From positions 1 to 27,737 of IMG/VR virus record IMGVR_UViG_3300044621_000632: 27,737 nt of DNA. One strand, written 5' to 3'. Positions 8,720-27,406 of this stretch are shown here, piece after piece. Position 1 is the stretch's first letter. Each line of letters begins with the position of its first letter. A program made the translations under genes and the position numbers. The DNA comes from a virus. The notes under the pieces were generated by a model that saw nothing but the letters and a program-made list of their open reading frames with translations, had not been told where the DNA came from and ran no database searches.

Positions 8720-8722
8720 GGA

Positions 8723-13391: not shown

Positions 13392-14496
13392 GCAGGAATT
13401 CCTTTAGCTTTGACAGTGACTGTAAAAGGGCGTCTACGCCCTCGATTACGGCCTCTTCATCGCCAGCGTCCCGCTGTCTCTGTAGGGCTTTGAATCCGTG
13501 GAGAGTGAGAGCCACGGCCTCTTTGCGAGAGTATCCTGCATCACGCAGGAAACGCTCGAAATCTCTTTCGGTGGTGATCGACTTGACGTTTGTCACCTTT
13601 GCATCCGGCAGCATCGGGAACGTCACAAGACTGATCTCGAACAGGTCCAGTTCCATCAGTTTGCGAACACGACCATCGCCCTCAGGGATGGCTTCCATTG
13701 TTCGGTATCCGATAGACATGGAATCGATGGCCCCGGCGCGTAGAAGCGCCATTGCCTCGCGGCCTTTTTCTACTTCTTTGAGCAGACGGCCACGGACAAA
13801 CAGGCCACGCTCGTCCTCGTAGATGTCGTCCCAGACGCCGATGGGCTGGCTCATATCGTGCTGCCATAGCATCTTGACTTTACGAGAGCCGAGCGATTTG
13901 CGGAATGCGCCGCGTTCGACCACATCCATTCCCTGATCGACAACGCCGAACACGGAGGCATAGCCCTCGAAGACGCCATCTTGATCCGGTTCGCGCTTGA
14001 GCGTCAGGGCAACGGATTTATGCTGGATCGGTTCGGACATGAACTTGTCGCCCTCTTCTCTGCGAACTATTGCGTTGGCCCATGAGCGGCCAGGATCACC
14101 GCCCCACAAGGCCCATGCGATGCGGCCAGCGGACGGATAGCCATCCTCGCCGGGGGAGAATCCTTGGCCTTGCTTGTCCACCTCATGGCGGGCGAAGTAT
14201 GAGACCATGCGCTTGACGGTATCGAGCGAAAGGTTGCGGCGGTTCTTGATGTCACGAGCGCGGGCAACGCCGATCTCGGTGCCACCACGGTTGAACTCAT
14301 CACGCCATTCGAGGCCGCGTGTGGCTTCTCGTGCCATTGCCTCGTTCGGTGAATATCCATCGGCCTTGCCTTCCCACTTGGAAATGCAGACGGCATAACG
14401 CTGATCTTCATCAGGAAAATCAGACATCGCCTCCTCGTCGCTCATGCAACGGGAGAGAAATTCGTCTTCGCTTTCGGTCGGGCCGGGGCTAGGCAT
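13354..14496 (-). CDS. Prohead protease (S78/U35) with two-part N-terminal extension
   Basis: 380 aa, about twice the usual ~190. Residues ~155-305 are the protease: FEGYASVFGVVDQGMDVVER, WQHD with likely catalytic His213, and IDSMSIGY with likely catalytic Ser261, then LDLFEISLVTFPM. Residues 1-45 form a small module with two Cys (FLSRCMSDEEA..DFPDEDQRYAVC), and residues ~55-147 another (AREATRGLEWRDEFNRGG, TVKRMVSYFARHEVDK, DGYPSAGRIAWALWGGDPG). Both occur in other phage head-module proteins. The C-terminal ~75 residues are helical and overlap the capsid gene start. The enzyme should mature the prohead by cutting the capsid delta domain. An internal start at Met153 could give a short form. 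Confidence 0.9.
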   Translation of the reverse strand: MPSPGPTESEDEFLSRCMSDEEAMSDFPDEDQRYAVCISKWEGKADGYSPNEAMAREATRGLEWRDEFNRGGTEIGVARARDIKNRRNLSLDTVKRMVSYFARHEVDKQGQGFSPGEDGYPSAGRIAWALWGGDPGRSWANAIVRREEGDKFMSEPIQHKSVALTLKREPDQDGVFEGYASVFGVVDQGMDVVERGAFRKSLGSRKVKMLWQHDMSQPIGVWDDIYEDERGLFVRGRLLKEVEKGREAMALLRAGAIDSMSIGYRTMEAIPEGDGRVRKLMELDLFEISLVTFPMLPDAKVTNVKSITTERDFERFLRDAGYSRKEAVALTLHGFKALQRQRDAGDEEAVIEGVDALLQSLSKLKEFLHVRGNQEGRRRG

Positions 14497-14525
14497 GAGG
14501 GGAATATATCATTGCTTGATTGAAA

Positions 14526-15314
14526 TCACAACATGGCCTCAAGGGCGGCTTCGTCCACGATGTAACCAACGGCGCAACGGCAGTTGATGACCTCATCGCC
14601 CGGGCCTTCTGGATCACCGGGAAACATGAGTTCGGCATCGCCAACCTTGAATTTTTCGTCCATGCCCACCGGCGGTTGAGTAGCAGCGATTCGATGCGTA
14701 TCTCTGGTGCGGTCATCAGCAGCAGCCAGCCACTCGCGGGACAATGGCAAGCCAGTCTGCTTTGCGGCCTCCTGGGAGCCGTAATTAGCAGCGCCGTGCG
14801 TCTCTGTGCGGGCAATCACGTTCGCCCGGGTCGAGGACAGGGAAGGCACCAGATCGAGGATGGCATCGGCAACCCCGCGCTGTCCAAGGCCTTCGCGATA
14901 GCCGCGATCCACGGCATTGACAATCTGGCGGCGGGTTGTTTCCGTCACCTCGGTGATGCGGCGGCGGATCATCTCCTGCTGGACATAGCGCAGCGCCAGC
15001 CGCGTCATGATCTGGGCAAAGGATTCCTTCGTCTCCAGCGGCAGGCCGTGCGCCTTGCCTTGGTCGAGAATGCGAAGCCCGAATTGCGTGATCGACGCCA
15101 TCGCCATCTGGCGATAGGTCGCCTCGATGCGGTCATGGAATCCGCGCGGTAAAGTCACCTGATTGGTCTGGAGCCACATCTCCACCATGTCTTTCATGGC
15201 GGTGGCGATCTCGCGTTGCAGGCGGGCGCGGAATTGAACCGTCAGGCGGTCGAGCAAGGCGACCTGACGGCGATGCTCCCGGCGCTTGTTATTATCGATT
15301 AGGCGTCGTGCCAT
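14526..15314 (-). CDS. Mu F-like minor head protein
   Basis: 262 aa. The C-terminal half carries the Mu F family signature: VIARTETHGAANYGSQEAAK, LSREWLAAADDRTRDTHRIA, LMFPGDPEGPGDEVINCRC (Cys245 and Cys247). The N-terminal half is highly basic and helical. Members are minor capsid or head morphogenesis proteins near the portal, and some carry ejected toxin domains; no toxin domain is seen here. It overlaps the portal gene by 23 bases, a common arrangement. Confidence 0.9.
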   Translation of the reverse strand: MARRLIDNNKRREHRRQVALLDRLTVQFRARLQREIATAMKDMVEMWLQTNQVTLPRGFHDRIEATYRQMAMASITQFGLRILDQGKAHGLPLETKESFAQIMTRLALRYVQQEMIRRRITEVTETTRRQIVNAVDRGYREGLGQRGVADAILDLVPSLSSTRANVIARTETHGAANYGSQEAAKQTGLPLSREWLAAADDRTRDTHRIAATQPPVGMDEKFKVGDAELMFPGDPEGPGDEVINCRCAVGYIVDEAALEAML

Positions 15315-16554
15315 AGGCCACAGCTTTCATTTCCTCGACTGTCATGTCAACTGAGGTGTCTCCTGCCACGCTCAAGGGGATTTCGGCGGAAGAAACGAAC
15401 AGGACATCACCGCCATCGATTGGCCCATAGCCCTTCAACGCGCGGCGCTCATTGATGGTGAGGTCTTGTGACTGGTCAGCCATCTGCCACATCGAAAGAC
15501 GCTTCTCGGCAATCGCCGGTATGCTGTCGATGTCAGGCTTGATCTCGACACCGTAGATGGATCCGAGCCATGCGTTCCAATCGTTTACGATCATTTGAAG
15601 CAGTGGGAGCGCCGTGTCTTCCCAGAAGGCCAGACGGGCCTCGGCATAGTTGGAATAGGTGTTATCGCCAGGAATGCCGAGAAGCTGCGGCGGCACGCCG
15701 AAGGCCAAGGCAACGTCACGGGCCGAGGAGAACTTGGTCTCGATGATGGACATATCATCGGGTGACAAGCCCATCTGCTTCCAGTCAAGGCCACCTTCGA
15801 GGAGCATCGGGCGACCGGCATTGGAGGAGCCAGAGTATTGTTCCTCGATCTGCGCCTTGAGACGGTTGAAGTTCTCGTCTGATAGCGTACCGGAATCCTT
15901 GACGGTCAATGCACCGGAAGGACGCGCCGAGTTCTGAAGCAAGGCTTGCATCCAGTTCATGGCTTCGTTGTTCTGGTCGATAGCGTATGAACCTGCCTCG
16001 ATTGGACTCATGCCGTACCAATCGTTCAACGGGTTGAACAGCTTCAAGTGCCGCACATCGCAGGTAAGCGTGCGCGGGTCCATCTCCCATCGCACCTTGT
16101 TCTGGCCGAGCGTGTACTCGTATGCAGACGGGATGCCATTGGATGATGGAACAATCTTCATGCGGTCTGGTCGAAGCTGGTAAAGCTCCTTGACCTCGCG
16201 GCCCACCATGAACCGCTCTTCGTAGCCGTTGCCCGCGATCATCAGGAACGACACCTTGGCGCGAACGTAATCGGAATAGGACTGAAGCGGATTCGGTCGT
16301 TCGAGCAGGGTGATGAGCGGGTGGTCAACCAGTTCCGTCTCGCCACGGTAGACGCCAAGATTGACGGATGCGATGGCATCAGCGATCCGGTTGATGGCCT
16401 GATATGCCACCACGTTCTTGCCATAGGCTTCCCTGGCGAAGGATTCATAGTTGCGTGGAGACCACACGGCTTGGCCGGGATTGATCACCATCAGCTTGGC
16501 GGCAGCGGATTCCTTGCGCTCTTGCGGGCGGCGGAAACGGTCAAAAAGTCCCAT
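15292..16554 (-). CDS. Portal protein, HK97 family
   Basis: 420 aa, usual length for the family. Diagnostic stretches are YGKNVVAYQAINRIADAIAS, DHPLITLLERPNPLQSYSDY, LMIAGNGYEERF, LFNPLNDWYGMSPIEAGSYA, SSARDVALAFGVPPQLLGIP and TYSNYAEARLAFWEDTALPL. Twelve copies form the ring through which DNA is packaged and ejected. ATG 16554 has GAGG 7 bases upstream and follows the terminase stop by 8 bases. Confidence 0.96.
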   Translation of the reverse strand: MGLFDRFRRPQERKESAAAKLMVINPGQAVWSPRNYESFAREAYGKNVVAYQAINRIADAIASVNLGVYRGETELVDHPLITLLERPNPLQSYSDYVRAKVSFLMIAGNGYEERFMVGREVKELYQLRPDRMKIVPSSNGIPSAYEYTLGQNKVRWEMDPRTLTCDVRHLKLFNPLNDWYGMSPIEAGSYAIDQNNEAMNWMQALLQNSARPSGALTVKDSGTLSDENFNRLKAQIEEQYSGSSNAGRPMLLEGGLDWKQMGLSPDDMSIIETKFSSARDVALAFGVPPQLLGIPGDNTYSNYAEARLAFWEDTALPLLQMIVNDWNAWLGSIYGVEIKPDIDSIPAIAEKRLSMWQMADQSQDLTINERRALKGYGPIDGGDVLFVSSAEIPLSVAGDTSVDMTVEEMKAVAYGTTPNR

Positions 16555-16562
16555 CTAGAACC

Positions 16563-17948
16563 TCACAAGGCGCGAACCGCAGGAGCAGACTGCGGCGCGG
16601 TCATATCGGAAATTGCACTCATTGCGGCGTCTATCATATCATCATGTGTGCCGTTGGGAAAGACCGAGGCCTCGGACATGAAATCGGCCAGGTGATCAAT
16701 GTTGGACATGATGTAGACATTGCCGGATTGGACGTAGGGCGCGGCATCAAATGCGCGTGTCACTTTGTCGGTGTTCCGCTGGATCGGAATGATGGGGATG
16801 CCCTCACGTTTCAGCTTCTGGATCAAGCCGGTGCCGCTTACCTTGTCTTCGACCTTGAAGGCTCGAAGCGGCCCATGATACGGCTGGGAATGATGCTTCT
16901 GCCAAAACGCGCGGGCCATCGTTTCAAGTTCTGGAGCCTCCCATTTGCCGCGTGCCATATCGAGCAGCACGATCTGTCCGGTTTGCGTTTGGCCCCAGCA
17001 TTGGAAGACGGAATAGTCATTCTGCTCCTTTGTCTTTTGCGCGGTGTCGGCATAGATCGCGCGCCACTTGAGCGGCGGCATGGCCTCGTAGAACCGCCAC
17101 CACTCATCTTTGAAGATGCCGCCCCCAAGCGGGGCTGGTCGTTGCATGTATTGACCTGCAAAGACGTAGGGGCTGGACTGCTCGAGGCGGTCGAGCATCT
17201 CGGGCGGGAATTGTTCCGGCCAGAACGATGAGCCATCTGGATCCCGGGCAGGGATCACGAGGCTATCCCACTTCTCGCCAGAGCCGCCGCCTAGAAGCCA
17301 GCCGGAAAGATCATCCTCGTGGAGCCGCTGCATGATGACGATGATCGGCGTGTCGGTCTTGTTAAGGCGTGACTGAATCGTGGTCTGATACCAGTCGATT
17401 ACGTTCTGGCGCATGATGGGCGAGGTTGCCTCACCTGCCTTGTGCGGATCGTCGATGATGATGGCACCGCCGAAGCCGTCTCGCATCTTGCCAGCGCCGT
17501 AGCCGGTGATGGTCCCTTCTGCGCCGGTTGCGTAGACGATGCCGCCGTGTGATGTGCGGAATTCATCCTTTGCCTTGCTATCGTCTTGGAGCGACACCCA
17601 CGGGAATATTGATCGATAGGTCTCGTGCTGCATCATGGCGCGGATGTCATATGCGTTGGATGTGGCGAGTCGCTTGGAATAGCTGGCGTGGATAAATTCT
17701 GCATCTGGCACGAGGCCGATGGTCCAGGCGATGAATGCCTTGACGGCAATCTCGGTCTTGCCGGATCGAGGCGGCACGTTGATGATGAGCCGCTTGATGC
17801 GGTGGGCGAAGACCTGCTCAAGGCTGCGGCAGATCGCCCGCTGATGATCGTTCGGCAGCATCTCTTGGTTGGTGCGGGCGCGGTAGATCGTGCGTGCGAA
17901 CTTATAGAGCCGTTGATGGTTGGCGGCTCGATGCTCACTCGGCGTCAT
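16563..17948 (-). CDS. Terminase large subunit
   Basis: 461 aa from ATG 17948; a longer in-frame start at 17972 is a TTG and less likely. The ATPase has Walker A VPPRSGKTE (residues 58-66) and Walker B IIIDD (163-167). The RNase H-like nuclease has IYADTAQKTKEQNDYSVF (Asp301), FKVEDKVSGTG (Glu367) and HDDMIDA near 435-441. This resembles the psiM2-type large terminases. It cuts concatemers and drives DNA into the prohead. The start overlaps the small-subunit gene by 14 bases. Packaging mode (cos or pac) cannot be read safely from sequence. Confidence 0.95.
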   Translation of the reverse strand: MTPSEHRAANHQRLYKFARTIYRARTNQEMLPNDHQRAICRSLEQVFAHRIKRLIINVPPRSGKTEIAVKAFIAWTIGLVPDAEFIHASYSKRLATSNAYDIRAMMQHETYRSIFPWVSLQDDSKAKDEFRTSHGGIVYATGAEGTITGYGAGKMRDGFGGAIIIDDPHKAGEATSPIMRQNVIDWYQTTIQSRLNKTDTPIIVIMQRLHEDDLSGWLLGGGSGEKWDSLVIPARDPDGSSFWPEQFPPEMLDRLEQSSPYVFAGQYMQRPAPLGGGIFKDEWWRFYEAMPPLKWRAIYADTAQKTKEQNDYSVFQCWGQTQTGQIVLLDMARGKWEAPELETMARAFWQKHHSQPYHGPLRAFKVEDKVSGTGLIQKLKREGIPIIPIQRNTDKVTRAFDAAPYVQSGNVYIMSNIDHLADFMSEASVFPNGTHDDMIDAAMSAISDMTAPQSAPAVRAL

Positions 17949-18318
17949 CGTAAATCTTGTTGAGCGCAGCAAGGACGGCGGCAGCGACTGGCTCTGGCTT
18001 CAGTGATCCATCTTCGTTGGAGATGTCCACGGTTTCGCGCCAGCGCGCGCGCGTCTTGAGCCAGAAGATCATTGCGGTTGTATCGCCAGCCTTGGCCTTG
18101 TTGAAGAGCGCACCGCCGATGGTTGCGTTGGCCTTGTCGCGTGCCTGCTTAAGTTCGGCTGAATAATACTTATAAAGCGTCTCCTTGTGGATGCCGAGGA
18201 TTTCGGCAATGCTCTCGTGCGTGGTGCCGACCGTTGCGTGGAGCGAGACAAGCTGGCGCTGCGCGTCTGTCGGCTCATGCGGCTTGCGTCCGGGCTTGGC
18301 TTTGAGTTCGTCGGTCAT
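17935..18318 (-). CDS. Terminase small subunit
   Basis: 127 aa, first gene of the late operon. KPGRKPHEPTDAQRQLVSLH followed by THESIAEILGIHKETLYKYY gives a clear helix-turn-helix at about residues 33-52, then KANATIGGALFNKAKAGDTT and MIFWLKTRARWRE, a pattern of short phage small terminases. It recognises the packaging site and feeds the large subunit. The promoter at 18361-18389 lies about 45 bases upstream. The ribosome site is weak. Confidence 0.88.
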   Translation of the reverse strand: MTDELKAKPGRKPHEPTDAQRQLVSLHATVGTTHESIAEILGIHKETLYKYYSAELKQARDKANATIGGALFNKAKAGDTTAMIFWLKTRARWRETVDISNEDGSLKPEPVAAAVLAALNKIYDDAE

Positions 18319-18339: not shown

Positions 18340-18361
18340 TTGCATTTTGCAGATTTTTGCA
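18340..18361. promoter_or_regulatory. Three TTGCA repeats (candidate operator, site A)
   Basis: TTGCA occurs at 18340-18344, 18347-18351 and 18357-18361. On the minus strand this reads TGCAAAAATCTGCAA followed by AATGCAA, with the first two repeats 10 bases apart. The block begins on the last T of the late promoter -10 box and covers the expected transcription start. A nearly identical 15-mer (TGCAAAAATATGCAA) is at 25600-25614. A repressor or activator site is inferred. Confidence 0.55.
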
Positions 18362-18389
18362 TTATATCACACTTATAGATGGAGGACAA
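18361..18389 (-). promoter_or_regulatory. Late-operon promoter, TTGTCC-N17-TATAAT
   Basis: On the minus strand TTGTCC (18389-18384) is followed after 17 bases by a perfect TATAAT (18366-18361). It faces the terminase and all head-tail genes. It resembles a sigma-70-type promoter; the predicted start falls inside the TTGCA repeats, suggesting control by a bound protein. Confidence 0.6.
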
Positions 18390-18392
18390 AAA

Positions 18393-18602
18393 ATGGTTTT
18401 CAACGATCCGCAGCGTGACTTTTGCTTTCGCAATGCAGCATACTTTACAGCAGTGCGCGGCCTTCGCCCTGCTAACAGAATACGCAAAGAATTCAAGACT
18501 TTTGAAGATGCTTGCACTTATGGGCGCACTTTTGGCGACAAACGCACCATGATTTACGCTGTTACAAAAGAAGGGCGCGATGCTCACATTTGTAACACAT
18601 AA
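18393..18602 (+). CDS. Small hypothetical protein (69 aa), plus strand
   Basis: 69 aa from ATG 18393, chosen because GGAGG stands about 8 bases upstream; an earlier in-frame start at 18321 is less likely. It contains FRNAAYFTAVRGLRPANRIR, FKTFEDACTYGRTFGDKRTM and IYAVTKEGRDAHI. I do not know its function; the compact positive, aromatic pattern resembles small uncharacterised phage proteins. It is the only rightward gene between 1 and 25648. A weak plus-strand promoter TTGCAT-N17-TATATC (18340-18368) could drive it. It converges on the decarboxylase gene, with 14 bases between the two stops. Confidence 0.7.
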   Translation: MVFNDPQRDFCFRNAAYFTAVRGLRPANRIRKEFKTFEDACTYGRTFGDKRTMIYAVTKEGRDAHICNT

Positions 18603-18615
18603 TGAACTATTCATT
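18601..18615. terminator. Small AT-rich hairpin between convergent genes
   Basis: AATGAA (18601-18606), loop CTA, TTCATT (18610-18615) lies between the converging stop codons at 18602 and 18617. The stem is short and AT-rich, so it is at best a weak bidirectional terminator. Confidence 0.25.
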
Positions 18616-18616
18616 T

Positions 18617-18955
18617 TCACACGCCACGCGGAAACAAACTAATATTGACCGTTTCAACGTCAAATTTATTCAGTACCGCAACTACACAAGCAAGTGGCTT
18701 GCCGTTTGCGCCACAAGTATAACAATCTAAACTAACAAAATTTCTTTCTGGAAATGTATGAATGCTAAAATGGCTCTCAGCCAAAAGCCAAACGCCAGTA
18801 AAAGCTCCAATTCCAAAATCATGTTTTGCAGACCCAAGCACGTTCATTCCACTCTTAGTCAGTGCGTCTTCTACAAAAGAAGATATATTCAACGAATCAA
18901 AACTTGATTCGCGCAACCAAACGTCAGCCGTAACATGTTCACCGTTAGTCTTCAT
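18617..18955 (-). CDS. speD: S-adenosylmethionine decarboxylase-like proenzyme
   Basis: 112 aa. The segment LLAESHFSIHTFPERNFVSL followed by DCYTCG is the signature of bacterial AdoMet decarboxylases. Self-cleavage would occur between Glu60 and Ser61, making the pyruvoyl cofactor on Ser61; His66 and Cys81 match the other processing and catalytic residues with the spacing of the Thermotoga enzyme. It would make decarboxylated AdoMet for spermidine synthesis. It is slightly shorter than cellular homologues (about 120-130). The gene overlaps the methyltransferase gene by 11 bases and is equally AT-rich, so the two came and are expressed together. No spermidine synthase is in the window. A changed substrate (ornithine or arginine) or a role in lowering AdoMet are alternatives. 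Confidence 0.85.
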   Translation of the reverse strand: MKTNGEHVTADVWLRESSFDSLNISSFVEDALTKSGMNVLGSAKHDFGIGAFTGVWLLAESHFSIHTFPERNFVSLDCYTCGANGKPLACVVAVLNKFDVETVNISLFPRGV

Positions 18956-20243
18956 CTTTAGCCATTAGATTTGATTTAATTTCACCAAGTTCATTCGCCG
19001 CTTTTTTCGCATCACCTTTCAGAAAAACAAGAACATTTTGATGCATTTTTCCAATTTTGCGAGTCGCTTGCATTGATTTTCCAGCCCTTAACGGCAATGT
19101 TCCGGCGCTATTTATTAAAATAATTTCATTGTAAAACTTATATCCAGCCTCCTCCATGATCTGAATTGTTTTTGGGATTGTGCCAATATATGCACCAGTT
19201 TTATCGCGGACCTCTCCCATGATTATAATAGCGAATCTATTGGCTTTTAGTTTTGAAAAAGTTTTTTGCAATATATTCTTGTATATAAGAAAAAAATTAT
19301 CATGCGTCATATTGGACAAGTCGCGAGGGTCATCGCTATAAACTTCTAGATCTGCATAAGGTGGACAGCTAAATATTAAATCCATGCTGTCGTTTGTTAT
19401 GTATAAATCCATATTTTCGCTTGTATCGCAATAATACTTGCACACAAGGCCAGCCTTATCGCAACGTTCTTGATTAAGATTTGCTTGTTCTTTTCTAAGT
19501 TCTATCCCTTGAAACTTCATGCCAAGTGAACCTGCAACGAAACCAAAAACAGTATCTCCAGCAAAAGGATCAAACACTGAACCATCTGGTTTTCCGAACC
19601 ATGAGACACATATTTCAGCTAATACTGGGTCTAGTAAACTTACACCATTATTCATTTCAGCCATAATGCTATCGTCTGCTAAAGTTCCTTCTCTACTTTC
19701 TCCGTTGTCTCCGATTAGATCTCGCCATTTACGCTTTAGTTCTATCCAATAACCTTGTCGTGTATCAAGGATGCTAAATGGAGGGACACCATAGCGATTT
19801 GCCATGCTGCCGATTTTGCCGTCTGTATATTTTTCTTCCGGAAGTTCATCAAACATTGATGCCATTTCGCCCAGCTCGAAGCCGGTGATAGTCAGATCAA
19901 ACTTCATGTCTTCGAGGTCTTTCAATTCAACCTTGAGCATCTCGAAGTCCCATCCGGCATCGAGCGCCATCCGGTTGTCGGCAATGACATAGGCGCGCTT
20001 CTGGGCCTCCGTCAGGTGCGCCGCCTCTACGCACGGCACTTCCTTCAGTCCTAGCTTGTTCGCTGCCAGGACGCGCCCGTGGCCCGCCACGATGCCGTTC
20101 TTGCCGTCCGTCACCACGGGGTTGATGAACCCGAATTCCTTGATCGAGGACGCGATCTTGGTGACCTGGGCCTCGGAGTGCGTCCGGCTGTTGCGGGCGT
20201 ACGGGATGAGGTCAGATGTTAAAATCAGCTTATAGGTCAGCAT
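18945..20243 (-). CDS. ParB-like nuclease domain fused to DNA methyltransferase
   Basis: 432 aa from ATG 20243, which sits 14 bases inside the upstream HTH gene; an upstream in-frame extension to 20390 would cross that gene and is rejected. Residues ~5-100 are a ParB/sulfiredoxin-like domain (LIPYARNSRTHSEAQVTKIA, VAGHGRVLAA with GHGR at 54-57, AYVIADNRMAL). Residues ~145-410 are an AdoMet-dependent methyltransferase: FDPFAGDTVFG (motif I, 224-234) and FSCPPYADLEVYSDDP (motif IV, CPPY at 293-296). Such fusions are common in phages and modify the phage genome, often as protection from restriction. The target base is not clear. Base composition drops sharply to AT-rich near 19860, between the two domains. 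Confidence 0.85.
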   Translation of the reverse strand: MLTYKLILTSDLIPYARNSRTHSEAQVTKIASSIKEFGFINPVVTDGKNGIVAGHGRVLAANKLGLKEVPCVEAAHLTEAQKRAYVIADNRMALDAGWDFEMLKVELKDLEDMKFDLTITGFELGEMASMFDELPEEKYTDGKIGSMANRYGVPPFSILDTRQGYWIELKRKWRDLIGDNGESREGTLADDSIMAEMNNGVSLLDPVLAEICVSWFGKPDGSVFDPFAGDTVFGFVAGSLGMKFQGIELRKEQANLNQERCDKAGLVCKYYCDTSENMDLYITNDSMDLIFSCPPYADLEVYSDDPRDLSNMTHDNFFLIYKNILQKTFSKLKANRFAIIIMGEVRDKTGAYIGTIPKTIQIMEEAGYKFYNEIILINSAGTLPLRAGKSMQATRKIGKMHQNVLVFLKGDAKKAANELGEIKSNLMAKDED

Positions 20244-20427
20244 TGCTGTCCTTTTTATTGTCGGTTTTTGTGACTGCCTTAACGGCAAGTTCGATGTATC
20301 GCGGAATCGGCTGCTTGCCGGTTTCATAGGCTCGGAACGTGTTGCGTGCGAGGCCGAGGGCCTCTGCTGCCTTGCGCTTCGATAGGGCAACCGAGGTGCG
20401 CCATTGGATGAGTTCGTCCGGTGTCAT
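20230..20427 (-). CDS. Small XRE/Cro-type HTH protein (65 aa)
   Basis: 65 aa from ATG 20427. LIQWRTSVALSKRKAAEALG followed by LARNTFRAYETGKQPIPRYI is a clear Cro/CI-type helix-turn-helix covering most of the protein; the tail is charged (KTDNKKDSNADL). A longer in-frame start at 20541 would run through the terminator and is rejected. No Shine-Dalgarno is visible; a promoter-like TTGTGG-N17-TATATT ends 7 bases before the ATG, so the transcript may be leaderless. It overlaps the methyltransferase gene by 14 bases and may regulate it or another phage promoter. Confidence 0.78.
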   Translation of the reverse strand: MTPDELIQWRTSVALSKRKAAEALGLARNTFRAYETGKQPIPRYIELAVKAVTKTDNKKDSNADL

Positions 20428-20434
20428 GCGGCGC

Positions 20435-20463
20435 AATATAGAGCAAAAAAAACCCCGCCACAA
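20435..20463 (-). promoter_or_regulatory. Promoter-like TTGTGG-N17-TATATT for HTH gene
   Basis: On the minus strand TTGTGG (20463-20458) lies within the terminator hairpin, with a 17-base spacer to TATATT (20440-20435). The -10 box is 5/6 to consensus and ends 7 bases before ATG 20427, so transcription could begin at or near the start codon. Confidence 0.4.
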
Positions 20464-20471
20464 GGGCGGGG
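20445..20471 (-). terminator. Rho-independent terminator after sigma4-like gene
   Basis: Minus-strand CCCCGCC (20471-20465), loop CTTGT, GGCGGGG (20459-20453) followed by eight T (20452-20445). It lies about 40 bases past the stop at 20510. This is a textbook intrinsic terminator ending the leftward small-gene operon, or acting as an attenuator before the HTH-methyltransferase-decarboxylase genes. Confidence 0.9.
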
Positions 20472-20509
20472 CCAGTTTGCTGCGGCGGGAGGAATAAACC
20501 GCAGGGGGA

Positions 20510-21076
20510 TCAATACCGATATGGATGCTTTGGCACTTCAATGCCCATGCGCCTAGCCTTTTCCCTCATCTCGCGAATGGCCTTCCATTCGTTCTGCCGG
20601 ATGCGCTCTCTCGTGACGCCATAGTCCTTGGCGATATCTTCGAGCGTCTGTTCCGGTTCTCCGGTGAGGCCGAAACGGGCTTCGATCATGGCGCGGCGGC
20701 GTGGGTGAGTGATGGCGGCGACCAGCTTGGCGAGAAGCGGCTTGTCCACTTCCAGGCTCGACGGTGCGGCGATCTGGGCCAGTTGCTCGGCGTCTATCTC
20801 TGCCTCGATAGAGTTGCGGGCGGTGAGCAGGTCTCGCATGTGATGCGGCCAGAGTTCTTCCGGCTCGGTGCGAAGTGCGGAGGAGATGTCCATTGCGAGG
20901 GATGACCAGTCGCCGTTAACAACTGGCTTTAGCTTAAAGTTGAGGAGTTCGCCAATGCGTTGTGGCGTGGTGCCGATGAACTTGGCGAACTCGGCTTGTG
21001 ATTTGAACCCTGCGGCCTTTATGGCGCGAAGGAGTCTGGCGTTGCGGACGGTGACTTTGACAGCGAAGTCGGTCAT
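20510..21076 (-). CDS. HTH plus sigma-70 region 4-like regulator (188 aa)
   Basis: 188 aa. Residues ~10-50 form an XRE-like HTH (LLRAIKAAGFKSQAEFAKFI, GTTPQRIGELLNFK). Residues ~122-172 resemble sigma-70 region 4: ARRAMIEARFGL-like HPRRRAMIEARFGLTGEPEQ then TLEDIAKDYGVTRERIRQNE and WKAIREMREKARRM, close to the RpoD -35-recognition helix. Sigma region 2 is absent, so it cannot be a complete sigma factor. It may bind DNA at two points and contact or redirect host RNA polymerase. It is the last gene of a leftward run and is followed by a strong terminator. It is a good candidate for phage early-to-late control. Confidence 0.8.
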   Translation of the reverse strand: MTDFAVKVTVRNARLLRAIKAAGFKSQAEFAKFIGTTPQRIGELLNFKLKPVVNGDWSSLAMDISSALRTEPEELWPHHMRDLLTARNSIEAEIDAEQLAQIAAPSSLEVDKPLLAKLVAAITHPRRRAMIEARFGLTGEPEQTLEDIAKDYGVTRERIRQNEWKAIREMREKARRMGIEVPKHPYRY

Positions 21077-21327
21077 GGGGTGGCCTCATAGGGGGGTGGC
21101 AGTGGCATCCAAGCGGTGACGTTATTGAGTTTCTCTCCTCGGGGTCCATCGTCGTGCCATCTCTGGCTTGTTTTGTTCCATCGGCCTATGCGGATGCGAT
21201 AGAAGGTTTTGATCTGCCCGCCGAACATGGCAAGCTCGAATTTGCTGGTCTCGTAGGTACAGGTCACGAGGACGTATCCCGGTGGCTTGCGCTCGCCTTT
21301 GGCGATAGGGGTCCAGGTCATGGCCAT
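21073..21327 (-). CDS. DUF551-like small protein
   Basis: 84 aa. The pattern MTWTPIAKGERKPPGYVLVT near the N-terminus and WNKTSQRWHDDG...VTAWMPLPPPYE at the C-terminus fits DUF551-type phage proteins, short beta-rich proteins of unknown function. ATG 21327 has GGGAG 4-5 bases upstream; ATG 21321 forms an ATGA overlap with the previous stop and is an alternative. It overlaps the sigma4-like gene by 4 bases. Confidence 0.75.
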   Translation of the reverse strand: MAMTWTPIAKGERKPPGYVLVTCTYETSKFELAMFGGQIKTFYRIRIGRWNKTSQRWHDDGPRGEKLNNVTAWMPLPPPYEATP

Positions 21328-21542
21328 TCGTCTCCCTCATCGGTAGCATCTCTTTCAAGTTCGTCTAAAAAATCACGCAGTCCAGCCAAAGCCATTTCAG
21401 GCGTTGTGCCCTGAGCATAGGCATGTGTTTCAAAATTATGTTCTGGGTCATCAAGGTGCGCCACATACGATTGAAAAAAATCTTCCCAATAAACAATGAT
21501 TTTATGATCTTCCGGGTTGATAGTTGGATATTCGTTTGTCAT
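21318..21542 (-). CDS. Small acidic protein with HicB-like pattern (74 aa)
   Basis: 74 aa, strongly acidic. KIIVYWEDFFQSYVAHLDDP and AQGTTPEMALAGLRDFLDEL resemble the beta-beta-alpha pattern of HicB-like antitoxin folds (Y..y.e.d..fva, GxTpeEAl). No HicA toxin gene is next to it. It is chained with ATGA overlap to its upstream neighbour. Phages carry orphan HicB-like proteins; similarity by eye is weak. Its DNA looks a little more AT-rich than its neighbours. Confidence 0.6.
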   Translation of the reverse strand: MTNEYPTINPEDHKIIVYWEDFFQSYVAHLDDPEHNFETHAYAQGTTPEMALAGLRDFLDELERDATDEGDEWP

Positions 21543-21736
21543 TCAGTCCTCGTGACTTTGGTGCCGATGATGCCTCTGAGGCTGATCTTGCGGCAGGTGT
21601 AACGGCGGGGGCGGTAGTAGCGGGCAGCATCGTGCTGGAGCGATTTGGAACTCCGACCGGGAGCGAAGAAGGATTCGCCCACTTCGATGGTGCGCCACGG
21701 ATACTTGGGCGGGCGTCCGTTGGGTTTGGTGGTCAT
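21539..21736 (-). CDS. Small conserved-type phage protein (65 aa)
   Basis: 65 aa, basic. The pattern GRPPKYPWRTIEVGESFFAP followed by a basic ARYYRPRRYTCRKISLRG segment resembles a small family seen in many phages of GC-rich hosts, W..(I/L)EVG(E/D)SF..P...(R)P..(Y/F)..R. Function is unknown; nucleic-acid binding would fit the charge but is inference. Both ends overlap neighbours by 4 bases. Confidence 0.65.
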   Translation of the reverse strand: MTTKPNGRPPKYPWRTIEVGESFFAPGRSSKSLQHDAARYYRPRRYTCRKISLRGIIGTKVTRTE

Positions 21737-21990
21737 TGCTGGTCGATCCTAAATGCGACTTCCAGAAAGTCATTGCGGATTTCTGTGATCATCTTGATGC
21801 GTTGGAAGTGTGCTTGATAGGCAAGTGCTCGCCGGGCGTTGGTGGAATAGTCGCGTCCGTTCGGATATGCGGCTTGCAGGGCATCGAGGAGGTCATCGAA
21901 TGCCATATCAAGTGCGGCATTGTTTTCGGTGATTTCCTCGCGGTCTTGTTGTCGAAGATGATCCGGAACCTGGAGCGGGGTGACGATCAT
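21733..21990 (-). CDS. Hypothetical helical protein (85 aa)
   Basis: 85 aa, mostly helical, acidic in the first half (HLRQQDREEITENNAALDMA) and amphipathic later (AYQAHFQRIKMITEIRNDFL). No family recognised. The start at 21990 has GGAG about 6 bases upstream and follows the coiled-coil gene by 3 bases. It is part of the leftward small-gene chain. Confidence 0.6.
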   Translation of the reverse strand: MIVTPLQVPDHLRQQDREEITENNAALDMAFDDLLDALQAAYPNGRDYSTNARRALAYQAHFQRIKMITEIRNDFLEVAFRIDQQ

Positions 21991-21993
21991 GGC

Positions 21994-22320
21994 TCACTCC
22001 GCCTTTTTATCTTTAACGATTGGAAACCCAGAGCTGCGGTTGGCAAGGTATGCCGCTAGGCGGGTCATTAGATCGTAGGTGGGAGTATTCCATCCCTGTG
22101 TTTCACCCTTGCGAGGCGCGGCTCCCGGCAGAATATCAAGCAGGATGTGGACCTGTTGGATTTCCTTCTCCAATTCGGAGCGCAAGGACAGATAGGTCTC
22201 TTTGGTCTTCTTCTGGTCGTCGCGGTCGTTCGTCAGCTTTTCAATTTCCGCCTTCATTGCTTCGATCTGCTCCTTCGCGGCTTTAAGCTGCGTGGACACG
22301 GCGGGTTTTTTCTTCTGCAT
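21994..22320 (-). CDS. Coiled-coil protein (108 aa)
   Basis: 108 aa from ATG 22320, chosen because a perfect AGGAGG lies 7 bases upstream; the frame continues upstream to 22629 but would overlap another gene. Residues ~5-60 are a charged helix likely to form a coiled coil (LKAAKEQIEAMKAEIEKLTN). The C-terminal part is mixed (LPGAAPRKGETQGWNTPTYD). I do not recognise a function; small coiled-coil proteins in this place may be accessory replication or regulatory factors, which is inference. Confidence 0.65.
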   Translation of the reverse strand: MQKKKPAVSTQLKAAKEQIEAMKAEIEKLTNDRDDQKKTKETYLSLRSELEKEIQQVHILLDILPGAAPRKGETQGWNTPTYDLMTRLAAYLANRSSGFPIVKDKKAE

Positions 22321-22348
22321 TTTAGTTCCTCCTGTTGTGTGGATGGGT

Positions 22349-22367
22349 GAGGGGCGTGAGGCCCCTC
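22349..22367 (-). terminator. Hairpin after 58-aa gene
   Basis: GAGGGGC (22367-22361 on the minus strand), loop CTCAC, GCCCCTC (22355-22349) is a perfect 7-bp stem beginning 2 bases after the stop codon. No U-tract follows; probably a stabilising or attenuating hairpin rather than a full terminator. Confidence 0.4.
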
Positions 22368-22369
22368 GT

Positions 22370-22546
22370 TTAGGCAACCGGCTCGGCGCGGAAGTTGGTG
22401 AGGTCCGCGAACCCGAAGGCCACCGCATCGCGCTTGGCGCGTTCGATGCCAGCCTCGGGAGACTTGCGCCATGTGAAGCATTCGAGAACCGAACCATCGG
22501 CGCGGTCTGCGAGGATACGGTAGGAGGCGGAAGAAGCGAGAAGCAT
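22370..22546 (-). CDS. Small hypothetical protein (58 aa)
   Basis: 58 aa from ATG 22546, chosen because AAGGAGG lies about 6 bases upstream; an in-frame ATG at 22612 lacks such a site. The sequence MLLASSASYRILADRADGSV then FTWRKSPEAGIERAKRDAVA looks like a compact alpha-beta protein of unknown function. It is the first gene of the leftward small-gene operon and lies downstream of the TGCAA repeat block at 22615-22653. Confidence 0.6.
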   Translation of the reverse strand: MLLASSASYRILADRADGSVLECFTWRKSPEAGIERAKRDAVAFGFADLTNFRAEPVA

Positions 22547-22614
22547 GTGGCCCTCCTTGGGCTGTGCAGTGGCGGGATTGCCCTGCGCTGTTGATGTCCC
22601 CTTATCCCACATCT

Positions 22615-22653
22615 TGCAAGAACCTGCAAGCGTTATGTTGCAGAAAAGTGCAA
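22615..22653. promoter_or_regulatory. Four TGCAA-type repeats (candidate operator, site B)
   Basis: On the plus strand TGCAA is at 22615-22619 and 22625-22629, and TGCAG/TGCAA at 22639-22643 and 22649-22653. Each pair has a 10-base period (one helical turn), the same spacing as at 18347-18361 and 25600-25614. It lies upstream of the leftward small-gene operon. On the minus strand a weak TTGCAG-N17-GATAAG promoter-like match overlaps it. Confidence 0.55.
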
Positions 22654-22994
22654 GAAAGCGCCATCCCCATAAATACCAATACTAAGCCTTTGAAATTGCT
22701 AGGCTTTTAATTAACTGTCTATATAGCCGTGAGCACCAAAAACGCCAAAGAATGGCAGATTGGCTTGTGCTTTCAATGGCTTAGGCTAATCACGGCATTA
22801 AAGGCAATTAAATGATTTATGGGTGAAGCCGGAAGGGCAGACCCGACCGGCTGGCTGGTGGTGTGTGGTGGGGTGGTGGTACTGTAATATATATAAATAG
22901 TATAATTCTCTCTATATATATACAACACTAGCAACATCAAGCACTTGCACGATCCATTTAGGGGTGACGCCCCACCCTCGAATAAGGCCCCTTA

Positions 22995-23026
22995 AATAAG
23001 AAAAGGCCCCGGATCGCTCCGAGGCC
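22995..23026 (-). terminator. Rho-independent terminator after prim-pol gene
   Basis: Minus-strand GGCCTCGGA (23026-23018), loop GCGA, TCCGGGGCC (23013-23005) with one G-U pair, then TTTTCTTATTT. It lies 25 bases past the stop at 23051 and should end the primase-helicase transcript. Confidence 0.85.
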
Positions 23027-23050
23027 CTGCCACTAGCTCATGTCCCTAGG

Positions 23051-25381
23051 TCAATCTTCCGTAGCCTCCGGTGCCGGGATGAACCACGCCATGCGAGGCC
23101 TTCCTCGCTGTCCCTTATTGGTGTGGCGGCATTGGATGCCGTAGTCGGCAACCAGCTTGTCCATCACCTGGCCTCGGTCCCGAAGCGTTAAGGCATCGAA
23201 CGCCGAGATGCGGTTGCCCAGTTCTGCCTCGGTCAGCCCCTTGAGACCTGATGACCGAAGCTTGGCAATGACTGCCTTGCAGATCGCCTGATGGCTGCTC
23301 TCGGCCATGTTGTCACGGAACATGGCGATTGCGCGCCGGTTGTAGAACCTGACATAATCAATCGCCCACTGCATGGGCTCCGGTCCAATCTCGGTCTCGC
23401 CCAATGACCTAGCGACAATCAGGCTGATCCGCATGGCAATCTCGCGGCTGCGGTTGTACATCGCCTCAAGGCCGGTTTCGTTCTCGCCCTTGATCGCTCC
23501 GACCAGTTCGGCCTCATAGTCCCGCAGGATGTCCATTGCTGGCCTTGTAAAGGGCACCTCGACGGGATCGGGCGGCATGTCATAGGTATTGGTGCCGGTG
23601 AGGTTTCCCGCCCCAGAGTGCGCCTGTGCCTGTTCTTGGAGCCATCCGATGATGCGGTCGCCAATCGGCACGATCCGCCGCTCTTGGCTCATCTGAACTC
23701 CGATTTCAGACTTGACGATAAGGAAGCGGTTCAAAAGGCCAGACGCGATGTCACCGCCTGAGATGGCCCCATAGAACTCTGATGGCGTAGACATGCCTAG
23801 GAGCGTCAAGGACGGCCTTCTGATCACCTTCTCGAAGGCTTCTGCCTGTTCCTTGGTTAAGCCGATGGTGGCATATCCTTGCGGCCGCAAGACGCCATCT
23901 TGCCGACCGAAGCATTCCATGATGGCGGTGAGGCTATCAGCCTTGTGCTGCATCGAGCGATTCGCGGCGCTCTTGAGCGTGCGGCCCAACTCATCGATCA
24001 CGGAAACGTGAATGGGCCGGGAGATGAGAGCCGAGAAGACGCCGCTGGCGCTGGTGTAACCGGCTGGCCCTAGCAGATGCCCTAGCTGGGCCGCATCAAG
24101 CATGGCCTCAATGACTGTCTTGGCGTGTTCCTTGCCGCAACCAGTCTCGCCAATATTGAGCAGGTATAGGTTGCTGAAGTTGCGCTGGCTGGTTGTCCAT
24201 CTCCGCCCCATTGCAACAGCACCAAGGGCAATAGCGGCTTGCACGGCAAACTGCGGCTGCGTCTTGATGGCGGTTGTTTCGTAGTACCGCACAACGTCTT
24301 GGAGCACGCCAGGGATCGAGAGCAGGTGCGCCGGGATAGATGCCAGCGGATTGTCTGGCGTAACAGTGGTGGTGCGTTTTGAAGGCAGCACGCCGGGAGT
24401 TGCCGCCTTGCCGTGGTCAGTCTCGGCTTGCTTCTCGGGCGTCCACTCATGGCTTGGATCGGTCGTGATGTTCAGAAAGAGGGCTGCGTTCTTGATCGCC
24501 GCACTCATGTTCCCGGCGTGCTCGAACTGTAGGTAAAGCTCGAAGCAGTCGAAGGCGTGTTCGTTGCCGAACGGATCGGAACCGTGATGGCTGAAAGCGG
24601 TGTTGTTGTCGAAGACGTTACAACCAGCCAGCTTGGTGCCGCTGTTCGGGCTTAGATACCGATTCGGGGCGGTGCGCTTGTAGCCATACTTGACCAGCAA
24701 CTCTCCGATATTGTGCGCTGCATTATAGGCGTCGATCACCGATGTGCCGGGATTGGGTGCGCGAACCCGCACCGGGGCCTGATACTCAGGCCGAACCTTC
24801 CACGGGCACAAGTCCATCATTTGCGGGCGCAACTTGTCCCACTCGTCCCACATGACTTGAAGTTGACGCGGCAAGATCGGAATCTGATCGAACGGCAAGC
24901 CCTCCCACACATAGGGCTGCATCGTGTCGGGATGGATCGACGGCGGCAGGACATCTTGCACCGGCCCACCGCGCAACTCGAAGACGGTTGTGTTGCCACG
25001 GCCATCCTTGTTCGGCCATGCGATGGAATGCCGTGATAGGTCATCCCGATGGGCGCGGAAGATCAGCTTGCCTCGGCCCTCACGCCCCCGGATTCTGGCG
25101 GTTGATGCCATCAAGGCGTCAAGGTCTAGCCCCAGCCCCTCGAAGATTATCCGCGTCCATTCCATGTGGTCGATGTCAATGGCGCATGTGCCGGTCCATT
25201 GATGGATGAGACCGACATTCCAAGTCGGATTCTTGGAATAGAAGTCGATGGCACCCTGGCCGATAAGTGCCTTGTCCTTCTGGTTCCAGCCGTAGGATGT
25301 CGGCCCCTTCTGCCCTGCCGGGATCGGGACAAGATACCAGCCGAGTTCGGTGTACTGCTTGATGCTCGCTATGATGGTCAT
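23051..25381 (-). CDS. Bifunctional primase-polymerase / helicase-like replication protein
   Basis: 776 aa. Residues ~7-170 are an AEP-type prim-pol domain: YTELGWYLVPIPAGQKGPTS at the start, CAIDID with metal-binding Asp69 and Asp71, and PPSIHPDTMQPYVWEG around 146-160. Residues ~355-650 are a P-loop ATPase like the DUF3987/helicase part: Walker A GETGCGKE (411-418), Walker B VSVIDE (459-464), and LTLLGMSTPSEFYGAISGGD. The C-terminus has a winged-helix-like end (LTEAELGNRISAFDALTLRD). It should prime and unwind phage DNA at the fork. It directly abuts the small HTH gene (TAA then ATG) and ends at a terminator. Confidence 0.9.
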   Translation of the reverse strand: MTIIASIKQYTELGWYLVPIPAGQKGPTSYGWNQKDKALIGQGAIDFYSKNPTWNVGLIHQWTGTCAIDIDHMEWTRIIFEGLGLDLDALMASTARIRGREGRGKLIFRAHRDDLSRHSIAWPNKDGRGNTTVFELRGGPVQDVLPPSIHPDTMQPYVWEGLPFDQIPILPRQLQVMWDEWDKLRPQMMDLCPWKVRPEYQAPVRVRAPNPGTSVIDAYNAAHNIGELLVKYGYKRTAPNRYLSPNSGTKLAGCNVFDNNTAFSHHGSDPFGNEHAFDCFELYLQFEHAGNMSAAIKNAALFLNITTDPSHEWTPEKQAETDHGKAATPGVLPSKRTTTVTPDNPLASIPAHLLSIPGVLQDVVRYYETTAIKTQPQFAVQAAIALGAVAMGRRWTTSQRNFSNLYLLNIGETGCGKEHAKTVIEAMLDAAQLGHLLGPAGYTSASGVFSALISRPIHVSVIDELGRTLKSAANRSMQHKADSLTAIMECFGRQDGVLRPQGYATIGLTKEQAEAFEKVIRRPSLTLLGMSTPSEFYGAISGGDIASGLLNRFLIVKSEIGVQMSQERRIVPIGDRIIGWLQEQAQAHSGAGNLTGTNTYDMPPDPVEVPFTRPAMDILRDYEAELVGAIKGENETGLEAMYNRSREIAMRISLIVARSLGETEIGPEPMQWAIDYVRFYNRRAIAMFRDNMAESSHQAICKAVIAKLRSSGLKGLTEAELGNRISAFDALTLRDRGQVMDKLVADYGIQCRHTNKGQRGRPRMAWFIPAPEATED

Positions 25382-25552
25382 TTATGCACGGCCTTCATAA
25401 AACTCCGTGAGCAGCTTGATCGTCTCATATCGAGCGCCGGGAGCGCCATCTCGAATGGCCTTCACGGTGTTGTAGGAAAGGCCGGTGGCCTTGACGATCT
25501 CGGGAATGTCAGCCCCGGCAAGTCGGGCGCGAATCTCTTCGATGGATAACAT
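25382..25552 (-). CDS. Small HTH regulator (56 aa)
   Basis: 56 aa from ATG 25552, with AGGAG about 8 bases upstream. IEEIRARLAGADIPEIVKAT followed by GLSYNTVKAIRDGAPGARYE fits a minimal Cro/XRE-like helix-turn-helix, and the whole protein is little more than that. It is the first gene of the leftward prim-pol transcript and faces the divergent rightward genes across the TGCAA repeats at 25576-25614. It is the nearest candidate for a protein that binds those repeats; this is inference. Confidence 0.78.
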   Translation of the reverse strand: MLSIEEIRARLAGADIPEIVKATGLSYNTVKAIRDGAPGARYETIKLLTEFYEGRA

Positions 25553-25574
25553 TGGTCAGTCTCCTGTTTGGTGA

Positions 25575-25614
25575 TTGCAATTTTTTCTATTGCACGTCCT
25601 GCAAAAATATGCAA
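25575..25614. promoter_or_regulatory. TGCAA/TTGCA repeats in divergent region (site C)
   Basis: TTGCA is at 25575-25579 and 25590-25594; TGCAA is at 25600-25604 and 25610-25614. The last pair reads TGCAAAAATATGCAA and differs at one base from the site A 15-mer. The block lies between the leftward HTH/prim-pol genes and the rightward recombination genes, so it can control both. No clean -10 box is visible beside it. Confidence 0.55.
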
Positions 25615-25648
25615 TAAGCCATTCCGTTGAGAGAAAAGGAGGCTGACA

Positions 25649-26029
25649 ATGAGCAGCAACATTACGGGCCTTTGCGGGGCCTGGCTTGAAGCCAAACGCC
25701 GTGAAGACGAGGCCATTGAGGCGCGTCGAAAGATCGAGCAAGACATCACCGAAGCACTGGACGCGAAGACCGAAGGCGCGATCACGCACAAGGTTGAGCC
25801 GTATCGGGTGACGCTCACCCAGCCGATCTATCGCAAGATCGATCTGGCAATCTGGGAGACGGTCAAGCACGACATGCCCGCCGAAGCTTGGCCGATCAAG
25901 GTCAAGATCGAAGTGGACGATGCCGGATGCAAGTGGCTGGCAAAAGAGCGGCCAGAACTCTGGTCTATCGCTGCCAAGGCAATCACGGCCACGCCGGGGA
26001 AGATCGGCGTCAAGGTGGTGGCGGAATGA
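25649..26029 (+). CDS. Hypothetical phage protein upstream of Sak4-like gene (126 aa)
   Basis: 126 aa; AGGAGG lies 8 bases before ATG 25649. The N-terminal half is a charged helix (WLEAKRREDEAIEARRKIEQ), followed by a beta-rich part (YRVTLTQPIYRKIDLAIWET, WPIKVKIEVDDAGCKWLAKE). Proteins of this form are common directly upstream of Sak4-type recombinase genes in phages; their function is not known to me. A recombination accessory role is likely from context. It overlaps the next gene by 4 bases (ATGA). Confidence 0.7.
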   Translation: MSSNITGLCGAWLEAKRREDEAIEARRKIEQDITEALDAKTEGAITHKVEPYRVTLTQPIYRKIDLAIWETVKHDMPAEAWPIKVKIEVDDAGCKWLAKERPELWSIAAKAITATPGKIGVKVVAE

Positions 26030-26199
26030 GCAGGGACATCTACGGAGCAGCAGACGCATTGCAGTATGCCCGCGACCACTTGGTCATTGCAAAGACCGAC
26101 AAGGTGAACCGCGACCATCATGTGCGGTGCGCTATTGAGAACCTGCGAGAGGCAATGAGGATACTCGGTGTTAAGGAGGCCGAGAACGATGGCAATTGA
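26026..26199 (+). CDS. Small helical hypothetical protein (57 aa)
   Basis: 57 aa from ATG 26026, overlapping the upstream stop (ATGA). YGAADALQYARDHLVIAKTD and HHVRCAIENLREAMRILGVK are two amphipathic helices. It overlaps the start of the recombinase gene by 11 bases. A longer in-frame start upstream (25888) lies within the 126-aa gene and is rejected. Function unknown; it is coupled to the recombination genes. Confidence 0.6.
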   Translation: MSRDIYGAADALQYARDHLVIAKTDKVNRDHHVRCAIENLREAMRILGVKEAENDGN

Positions 26200-26944
26200 T
26201 CTGAAGAAACTGGAGCGCCCGAAAGGGCAACGCCCAATCATCGCCACCTTCTTTGGTGAGGGCGGCATGGGCAAATCAACCTTGGCTGCGATGTTCCCGA
26301 GGCCGGTGTTCATCCGCACCGAAGACGGAACCGCCAGCTTGGCTGGCAACGATGAGGTGATGCTTTTCCCGCTGGTCTCATCAAGCCAGGAAGTGCTTGA
26401 CCAGATCGAGGCACTGGCAACTCAAGAGCACGACTTCAAGACGGTCGTGATTGATAGCATCACGCAGCTTGCCACGCTCATCGAGCATGAGATTGTTGCA
26501 GCCGATCCCAAAGCCAAGTCAATCAACCTAGCCGGTGGCGGTTACGGCGCTGGCTATAACACCGCCGCCGAGAAGCACCGGCAGGTGCGGGAATGGGCTG
26601 GCGCACTAGCCTACGAACGCGGCATGAACGTGGTTTTCATCGGCCACGCTGACACCGAGACGCTCGATCTGCCAGACTTTGATCCATTTGCCAGATACAC
26701 GGTGCGGATGCACAAGAAGTCATTGCCGCATTACACCGACAACGTTGACCTCGTGGGCCTGATCCGGCTCAAGACCTACGTCCGAGGTGATGGCGACAAG
26801 AAGCGGGCGATCAGCACAGGCGACCGGGAGATCATCTGCTTCCCGCAAGCCTCGAGCGTGACGAAGAACCGTTTCAACGTCACCCAGCCACTGCCGTTCA
26901 CCTTTGAGAGCGGCAACCCTTTTGAAGCCTTTGTAGCAAAGTAG
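26189..26944 (+). CDS. Sak4-like recombinase ATPase (AAA_24 type)
   Basis: 251 aa from ATG 26189, with AAGGAGG 10 bases upstream; a GTG at 26168 is less likely. Walker A FGEGGMGKST lies at residues 22-31, Walker B TVVIDSI follows near residue 85, and LAGGGYGAGYNTAAEKHRQV and GMNVVFIGHADTET are typical of phage RecA-like Sak4 proteins. These anneal single strands or promote homologous exchange with an SSB partner. Its neighbour downstream is such an SSB-like DUF669 protein, 9 bases away, which fits. Confidence 0.9.
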   Translation: MAIDLKKLERPKGQRPIIATFFGEGGMGKSTLAAMFPRPVFIRTEDGTASLAGNDEVMLFPLVSSSQEVLDQIEALATQEHDFKTVVIDSITQLATLIEHEIVAADPKAKSINLAGGGYGAGYNTAAEKHRQVREWAGALAYERGMNVVFIGHADTETLDLPDFDPFARYTVRMHKKSLPHYTDNVDLVGLIRLKTYVRGDGDKKRAISTGDREIICFPQASSVTKNRFNVTQPLPFTFESGNPFEAFVAK

Positions 26945-26953
26945 GAGAAGAGA

Positions 26954-27406
26954 ATGAGACTGAATGGATTCGATGCGAATGTCGTGGAGCCGAGTGCGCC
27001 ACGCGAGGTTATCCCGGCTGGAAAGTACAAGGCCGTGATCACGAAGTCGGAGGAGCGCCCCACCAAGGCACAGACCGGCTCGATGCTGGTGCTGACCTGC
27101 CAGATCATCGAAGGGCCGCACCAAGGCGTGAGCCTGATGGACCGGCTGAACCTCAACAATCCCAACAAAACGGCGGAAGAGATTGCCCAGCGCACGCTCT
27201 CGGCCATCTGCCGGTCGGTTGGTGTGATGATGCCGAACGAGAGTTCTGACCTCCACGACAAGCCGCTCATGATCACGGTCAAGGTGAAGCCCGCAGAAGG
27301 TCAGTATCAGGCATCGAATGAGATCGTTGGATATGAGCCGTGCGAAGGTGGCGCACCGGCTGCTGCACCGGCTGCTGCTGCAACGCCACCCTGGAAGAAG
27401 AAGTAA
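26954..27406 (+). CDS. DUF669-type SSB-like protein
   Basis: 150 aa. FDANVVEPSAPREVIPAGKY, ITKSEERPTKAQTGSMLVLT and VSLMDRLNLNNPNKTAEEIA are characteristic of DUF669, which has an OB-like, ssDNA-binding role and often pairs with Sak4. The C-terminus is an Ala/Pro-rich linker ending PPWKKK; unlike cellular SSB it is basic rather than acidic. GGAG lies 8 bases before ATG 26954. It follows the recombinase by 9 bases. Function inferred from family and pairing. Confidence 0.85.
   Translation: MRLNGFDANVVEPSAPREVIPAGKYKAVITKSEERPTKAQTGSMLVLTCQIIEGPHQGVSLMDRLNLNNPNKTAEEIAQRTLSAICRSVGVMMPNESSDLHDKPLMITVKVKPAEGQYQASNEIVGYEPCEGGAPAAAPAAAATPPWKKK

Follow-up and report, generated by a model that had tools for sequence, protein, structure and literature searches.

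The Cro repressors of lambdoid phages (lambda Cro and 434 Cro) act on inverted operators of 14 to 17 bp. C proteins, such as C.Esp1396I, and Aca repressors are tiny helix-turn-helix (HTH) dimers that autoregulate via inverted repeats, and the lambda CII site is a direct repeat, TTGC-N6-TTGC. Here, a stretch of viral DNA of 27,737 nucleotides (IMG/VR record IMGVR_UViG_3300044621_000632, positions 1 to 27,737; hereafter, the window) was analyzed for a recurring TGCA repeat. As in the lambdoid Cro systems, a very small HTH protein (HTH56) is encoded before replication genes, and inverted repeats, the putative operators, lie over its own and the divergent promoter. In contrast to those systems, no CI partner, integrase, or lysogeny genes were seen (integrase PF00589 was found in none of the eight records searched, which may be fragments), putative operators also occur away from the HTH gene, before the leftward operon and, in part of the group, at late promoters, and HTH56 has no significant sequence match to a solved Cro. 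HTH56 resembles C proteins and Aca repressors in being a tiny HTH protein that presumably dimerizes and binds inverted repeats at its own promoter, but its neighbors are prim-pol and recombination genes, in comparison with Aca a conserved replication and recombination setting, and the fold matches are not significant. A restriction-modification controller was considered as its identity and rejected, as HTH56 is flanked by prim-pol and DUF7173, with no restriction-modification operon. TTGC cores lie 10 bp apart near a -35 element, as at the lambda CII site, but the conserved unit here is inverted.

The carrier phages are a group related to Roseobacter phages. HTH56 lies directly before prim-pol and is divergent from DUF7173-Sak4-DUF669, and the gene order is the same in Roseobacter phages CRP-901 and CRP-902, where a homologous HTH at the same place is accompanied by half-sites in similar geometry; their half-site, however, is TTTACA, not TTGCA. 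The paper on CRP-901 and CRP-902 notes the HTH, and a term search of its text returned no mention of a promoter or repressor (PMC10149686). A literature search for this operator or for a lone Cro-like regulator found nothing relevant.

An earlier note on this DNA had listed four copies of a repeat, TGCAR-N5-TGCAA, and all four were confirmed, at 18347-18361 (minus strand), 22615-22629, 22639-22653, and 25600-25614. A match at 22614-22628 on the minus strand is a second reading of the 22615 site. With both readings of 22614-22629 counted, the window holds five matches, compared with a mean of 0.34 in dinucleotide shuffles, and none of 100 shuffles reached five. The 15-mers at 18347 and 25600 (TGCAAAAATCTGCAA and TGCAAAAATATGCAA) do differ at a single base, as had been claimed. 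Among the 116 TGCA tetramers of the window, only four pairs are spaced by exactly 10 bp, and all four are intergenic, with intergenic DNA scored as about 885 bp (3% of the window) and bases 1-17972 counted as fully coding. When the window was scanned with a symmetric matrix built from the relatives' sites (the training set includes one sequence identical to the window's operator O1), the same four sites ranked highest, at 21.7 to 15.7 bits, and the next-best match, at 11.8 bits, was in coding DNA. Single shuffled windows can reach 17 to 23 with this matrix, so true and chance sites are not distinguishable by score alone, and the case for the sites rests on rank, position, and conservation. The repeats are real, nonrandom, regulatory-looking, and conserved in related phages. 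They lie upstream of separate operons, as the note had proposed for transcription units, although the transcription starts are predicted ones.

The proposed direct-repeat geometry did not hold. Because TGCA is palindromic, TGCA-N6-TGCA reads either as a direct or as an inverted repeat, and the strings of the window read equally well as T-TGCA-N6-TGCA-A inverted repeats. The relatives decide for the inverted form, because the outer T before and the outer A after the repeat are both kept, which only TTGCA-N6-TGCAA explains. Upstream of the leftward small genes, downstream of primase, about 20 close relatives carry TTGCACTTTTCTGCAA-CATAACGC-TTGCAAGTTTCTGCAA or a close variant. Many relatives lack an intact direct repeat at the HTH promoter, where CTGAAATGCG stands in place of TTGCAGGACG; the outer TTATTGCA-N15-TGCAATA and a further TTGCAA are retained. 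A lambda CII-type direct repeat conserved at -35 was not found, as the inverted form is kept and the direct form is lost in relatives. Judged from these alignments, what is conserved is an inverted repeat of 16 bp, TTGCA-N6-TGCAA, which frequently occurs twice, 24 bp apart (Table 1). More generally, one genome cannot separate direct from inverted repeats when the core is its own complement.

Table 1. Putative operators, candidate promoters, and associated genes in the window
Feature	Position	Strand	Basis or remark
Terminase small subunit, first gene behind the 18347 site	17935..18318	-	phrog_309, E 3e-19
Extra half-site TTGCA adjoining the 18347 operator	18340..18344		
Putative operator TTGCAGATTTTTGCAT between the terminase small subunit and rightward ORF 18393-18602	18347..18362		Third matrix match
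Predicted terminase promoter, TTGTCC-N17-TATAAT, TG before -10	18361..18389	-	Promoter scan
First small gene of leftward operon, 58 aa, start AAGGAGGG	22370..22546	-	Conserved in relatives
Candidate leftward-operon promoter, TTGCAG-N17-GATAAG	22601..22629	-	By eye; sequence kept in most relatives
Putative operator O2, leftward operon, TTGCAAGAACCTGCAA, 24 bp center to center from O1	22614..22629		Second matrix match
Putative operator O1, leftward operon, TTGCAGAAAAGTGCAA	22638..22653		Top matrix match
Prim-pol/helicase-like replication protein, behind HTH56	23051..25381	-	PF09250 and PF13148
HTH56, 56-aa HTH protein, proposed operator-binding autorepressor	25382..25552	-	phrog_18104 transcriptional regulator, E 3.8e-7
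Further half-site TTGCAA, HTH56 side	25575..25580		Retained in close relatives
Candidate HTH56/prim-pol promoter, TTGCAT-N17-AATAGA, overlaps operator	25586..25614	-	Weak, by eye
Inverted repeat TTGCA-CGTCC-TGCAA, 5-bp spacer, HTH56/DUF7173 divergent region	25590..25604		
Candidate recombination-operon promoter, TTGCAC-N17-AATAAG, overlaps operator	25590..25618	+	Weak, by eye
Outer half-site TGCAA (TTATTGCA on - strand), part of conserved TTATTGCA-N15-TGCAATA	25610..25614		
Divergent operon: DUF7173, Sak4-like ATPase, DUF669 ssDNA-binding protein	25649..27406	+	

By sequence comparison, the HTH/recombination and leftward-operon sites are conserved. The inverted repeats at the HTH gene's own and divergent promoter are irregular in the window, and L112 and L116 have a canonical pair there. 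Many close relatives lack the 25600-25604 arm, and the outer half-site is retained in all close relatives as well as L036/L037. At the place of the further half-site, a full TTGCA-N6-TGCAA is found in L112 and L116 as their second full operator; in these divergent phages, the HTH gene immediately follows the pair, which adjoins the ribosome site, and a second pair of the L112 contig (L118) lies downstream of primase. Of the candidate promoters, the HTH and rightward ones are less certain.

About a dozen relatives were initially taken for natural HTH knockouts, which proved wrong: these relatives do encode the HTH, with another gene lying between it and primase. An extra gene at this place, methyltransferase-like by eye, is seen in L008, L010-L013, L015, L018-L020, L029, and L035, the relatives being otherwise near-identical. 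In L032, L033, L035, and L038, the primase is only 66 to 67% identical to that of the window, whereas HTH56 and DUF7173 are 92 to 98% identical; as read from these identities, the contrast marks a recombination junction adjoining the operator region.

For the leftward operon, each position of the O1 arms is kept in 26 to 28 of 28 distinct sequences (two of them from the unrelated contig L123), and the inner six bases vary. The script behind this set demanded intact O2 arms, making O2 invariance there a matter of construction; its conservation comes from a separate alignment of the leftward region, in which O2 is intact in relatives. O2 covers the -35 element and spacer of the candidate leftward promoter, and O1 lies upstream. 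Just upstream of O1, at about 22682-22706, a stem-loop (AAGCCT..AGGCTT) is conserved in many relatives. Contig L123 carries TTGCAATTTTCTGCAACAGTAGTG in tandem at about 1210-1275, in 24-bp units of the same pattern, which may be unrelated iterons.

On the late side, the 18347 operator covers the expected start of the predicted terminase promoter, a product of a scan whose overall count in the window was no higher than in shuffles. This site was seen only in the window and the near-identical L006, and no such site precedes the terminase small subunit gene in 13 other loci. In L036, L122, L106, and L091/L102, an exact or 9/10 operator follows a terminator upstream of the late-side genes; it immediately precedes the terminase gene of L122 and, in L036, lies before the gene for the ParB-methyltransferase. 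At this place, only TTGCTCTATATTGCG is present in most close relatives. Late-gene control by the same HTH protein, varying among members, is therefore a plausible reading of these sequences. The earlier proposal that one operator serves all three units is thus supported in part, the terminase site not being conserved at its place. Whole-genome coordination, also proposed there, is plausible for the family, since the late operon of divergent relatives has the operator at its start.

Several features of this region were observed in passing. An S-adenosylmethionine decarboxylase-like gene (18617-18955, minus strand; PF02675, E 3.5e-21) forms a cassette with the 18393-18602 ORF and has no match in close relatives except L006. 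The minus-strand gene at 18945-20243 encodes a DNA methyltransferase joined to a ParB-like domain at the N terminus; in most close relatives, the match is confined to about the first 130 to 150 residues, so the methyltransferase half seems to be exchanged. An extra intergenic operator, TTGCAGATTGGTGCAA, lies at G011:21624-21639 (L227), just before a small protein with a signal-peptide-like start.

The repeats are probably operators of HTH56, which would be a small Cro-like autorepressor acting on inverted TTGCA-N6-TGCAA. An HTH56 dimer would bind this sequence, relaxed in places, often at paired sites with 24-bp spacing. The HTH/prim-pol, recombination, and leftward operons would be transcribed early in infection; accumulating HTH56 would then fill operators that overlap predicted -35, spacer, or start regions and so turn off three operons: its own, the divergent recombination operon, and the leftward one. 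The terminase operon of this phage would be a further target. What the sequences show are the sites and how they are conserved, the order of the genes, and the agreement of site class with HTH class; binding, dimerization, repression, and timing by HTH56 are what we infer. Operators placed over predicted promoters, or adjoining the ribosome site as in L112 and L116, fit repression. Weighing against this reading, phages with an HPT recognition helix keep some TTGCA half-sites, the HTH-promoter site is irregular, with its 5-bp spacer in the window and the loss of one arm in many relatives, the terminase site is not conserved at its place, and the fold matches are not significant.

It is unlikely, although worth weighing, that the same HTH and sites form a dual switch like those of C proteins or of lambda CI at OR, in which the upstream operator of a pair activates and the promoter-proximal one represses. 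The 24-bp pairing, with O2 over -35 and O1 upstream, would suit such a switch, and C.Esp1396I is among the nearest folds to the HTH56 model, although not significantly so. However, the 18347 operator over an expected start and the L112 and L116 operators abutting the ribosome site occupy positions that fit repression only, and L027, L029, and L036 keep O2 without an intact O1.

The sites are most likely read by the phage-encoded 56-aa HTH protein. Of the three binders named in the earlier note, this first-listed one is favored: in a profile search of 12 records, the HTH56 family was present in 12, the HTH-sigma4 protein in 2, and the 65-aa HTH (HTH65) in 4, and many operator-bearing records lack the last two. 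All 12 records with a YNT recognition helix contain exact TTGCA-N6-TGCAA (27 sites in total), several YNT members having been found through the motif itself, and it is absent from three HPT-helix records searched throughout; a reversed control pattern was found in none of the 15 records. At the same intergenic place, HPT phages carry TTTACA-N15-TGTAAA-N6-TTTACA, and TTTACA-N15-TGTAAA occurs once per CRP genome, at the HTH promoter only. Upstream of distinct YNT HTHs, TTGCA half-sites without TTTACA were found in 27 of 27 cases, and TTTACA lies upstream of 18 of 18 distinct HPT HTHs, some with TTGCA too; this contrast is one evolutionary change and may reflect linkage by descent. By analogy with the 434 repressor, the two changed helix residues presumably fall at base-reading positions. 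The key TTATTGCA-N15-TGCAATA was too short for searching, as many of the matches listed were unrelated; only HTH-bearing members were used. An AlphaFold model from the single sequence is a compact four-helix HTH (mean pLDDT, 87.6), and the 56-aa protein leaves room for little other than the DNA-binding domain. A Foldseek search of the PDB with this model gave no match at 0.001 (best E, 0.33), the nearest folds being HipB, Aca11, and C.Esp1396I, and a PDB profile search with the HTH alignment gave weak LacI-headpiece and other matches (best E, 0.03), which were not taken as evidence.

A host regulator, or a phage protein encoded outside the window, might instead read the sites, with HTH56 a bystander; the window and most records are incomplete, and other regulators could lie beyond them. 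We consider this improbable, as the operator adjoins the HTH gene and, across many contigs, operator sequence class and HTH class go together. Moreover, a gene-blind scan of 2.9 million viral contigs for two TTGCA-N6-TGCAA sites 6 to 10 bp apart gave mostly this phage group (of 41 stretches, 35 with its genes and 6 without). It is still less probable that a true direct repeat is read by a lambda CII-like activator (TTGC-N6-TTGC), the HTH-sigma4 protein, or HTH65. The window strings do fit a direct repeat, and TTTTGCAGATTTTTGCA at 18347 matches TTGC-N6-TTGC by eye, but the relatives retain both outer bases (T and A) of the inverted repeat, and at the HTH promoter their direct repeat is broken, and neither of these proteins is found in most operator-bearing records. 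Mere promoter elements or chance can be set aside almost entirely: TTGCA coincides with candidate -35 hexamers at three promoters and some shuffled windows attain similar matrix scores, but O1, the 18347 site, and the post-terminator sites in L122 and L036 lie away from any recognizable -35, and enrichment, the reversed-pattern control, and conservation oppose chance. The HTH-sigma4 protein (20510-21076, minus strand) has a sigma-70 region 4 domain (PF04545) behind an HTH-like N terminus; it is present in only part of the group, and the G001 copy has an internal TGA.

With HTH56 as the preferred reader, the sites make up a newly delineated regulon of a familiar kind, and the earlier idea of one regulator appears largely right. 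More tentatively, and with somewhat less than even confidence, we suggest an apparently lytic lineage in which a lone Cro-like protein, without a lysogeny repressor, times early, accessory, and late operons, and in which specificity was switched between sublineages (HP replacing YN where the recognition helix begins), with a matching TTGCA-to-TTTACA operator change at the HTH promoter. If true, a phage group that is related to marine roseophages and has come to light mainly through metagenomes would gain a first regulatory map. It would also provide a concrete protein-operator pair whose specificity has switched in nature, and a case of apparently lytic phages retaining a Cro-type brake without its lysogeny partner; one small switch probably times much of infection. 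One HTH56 homologue (L022, 7023-7211), whose operators are retained, has a short in-frame insertion (RDNSRRLIDGSESGARY) immediately behind the recognition helix.
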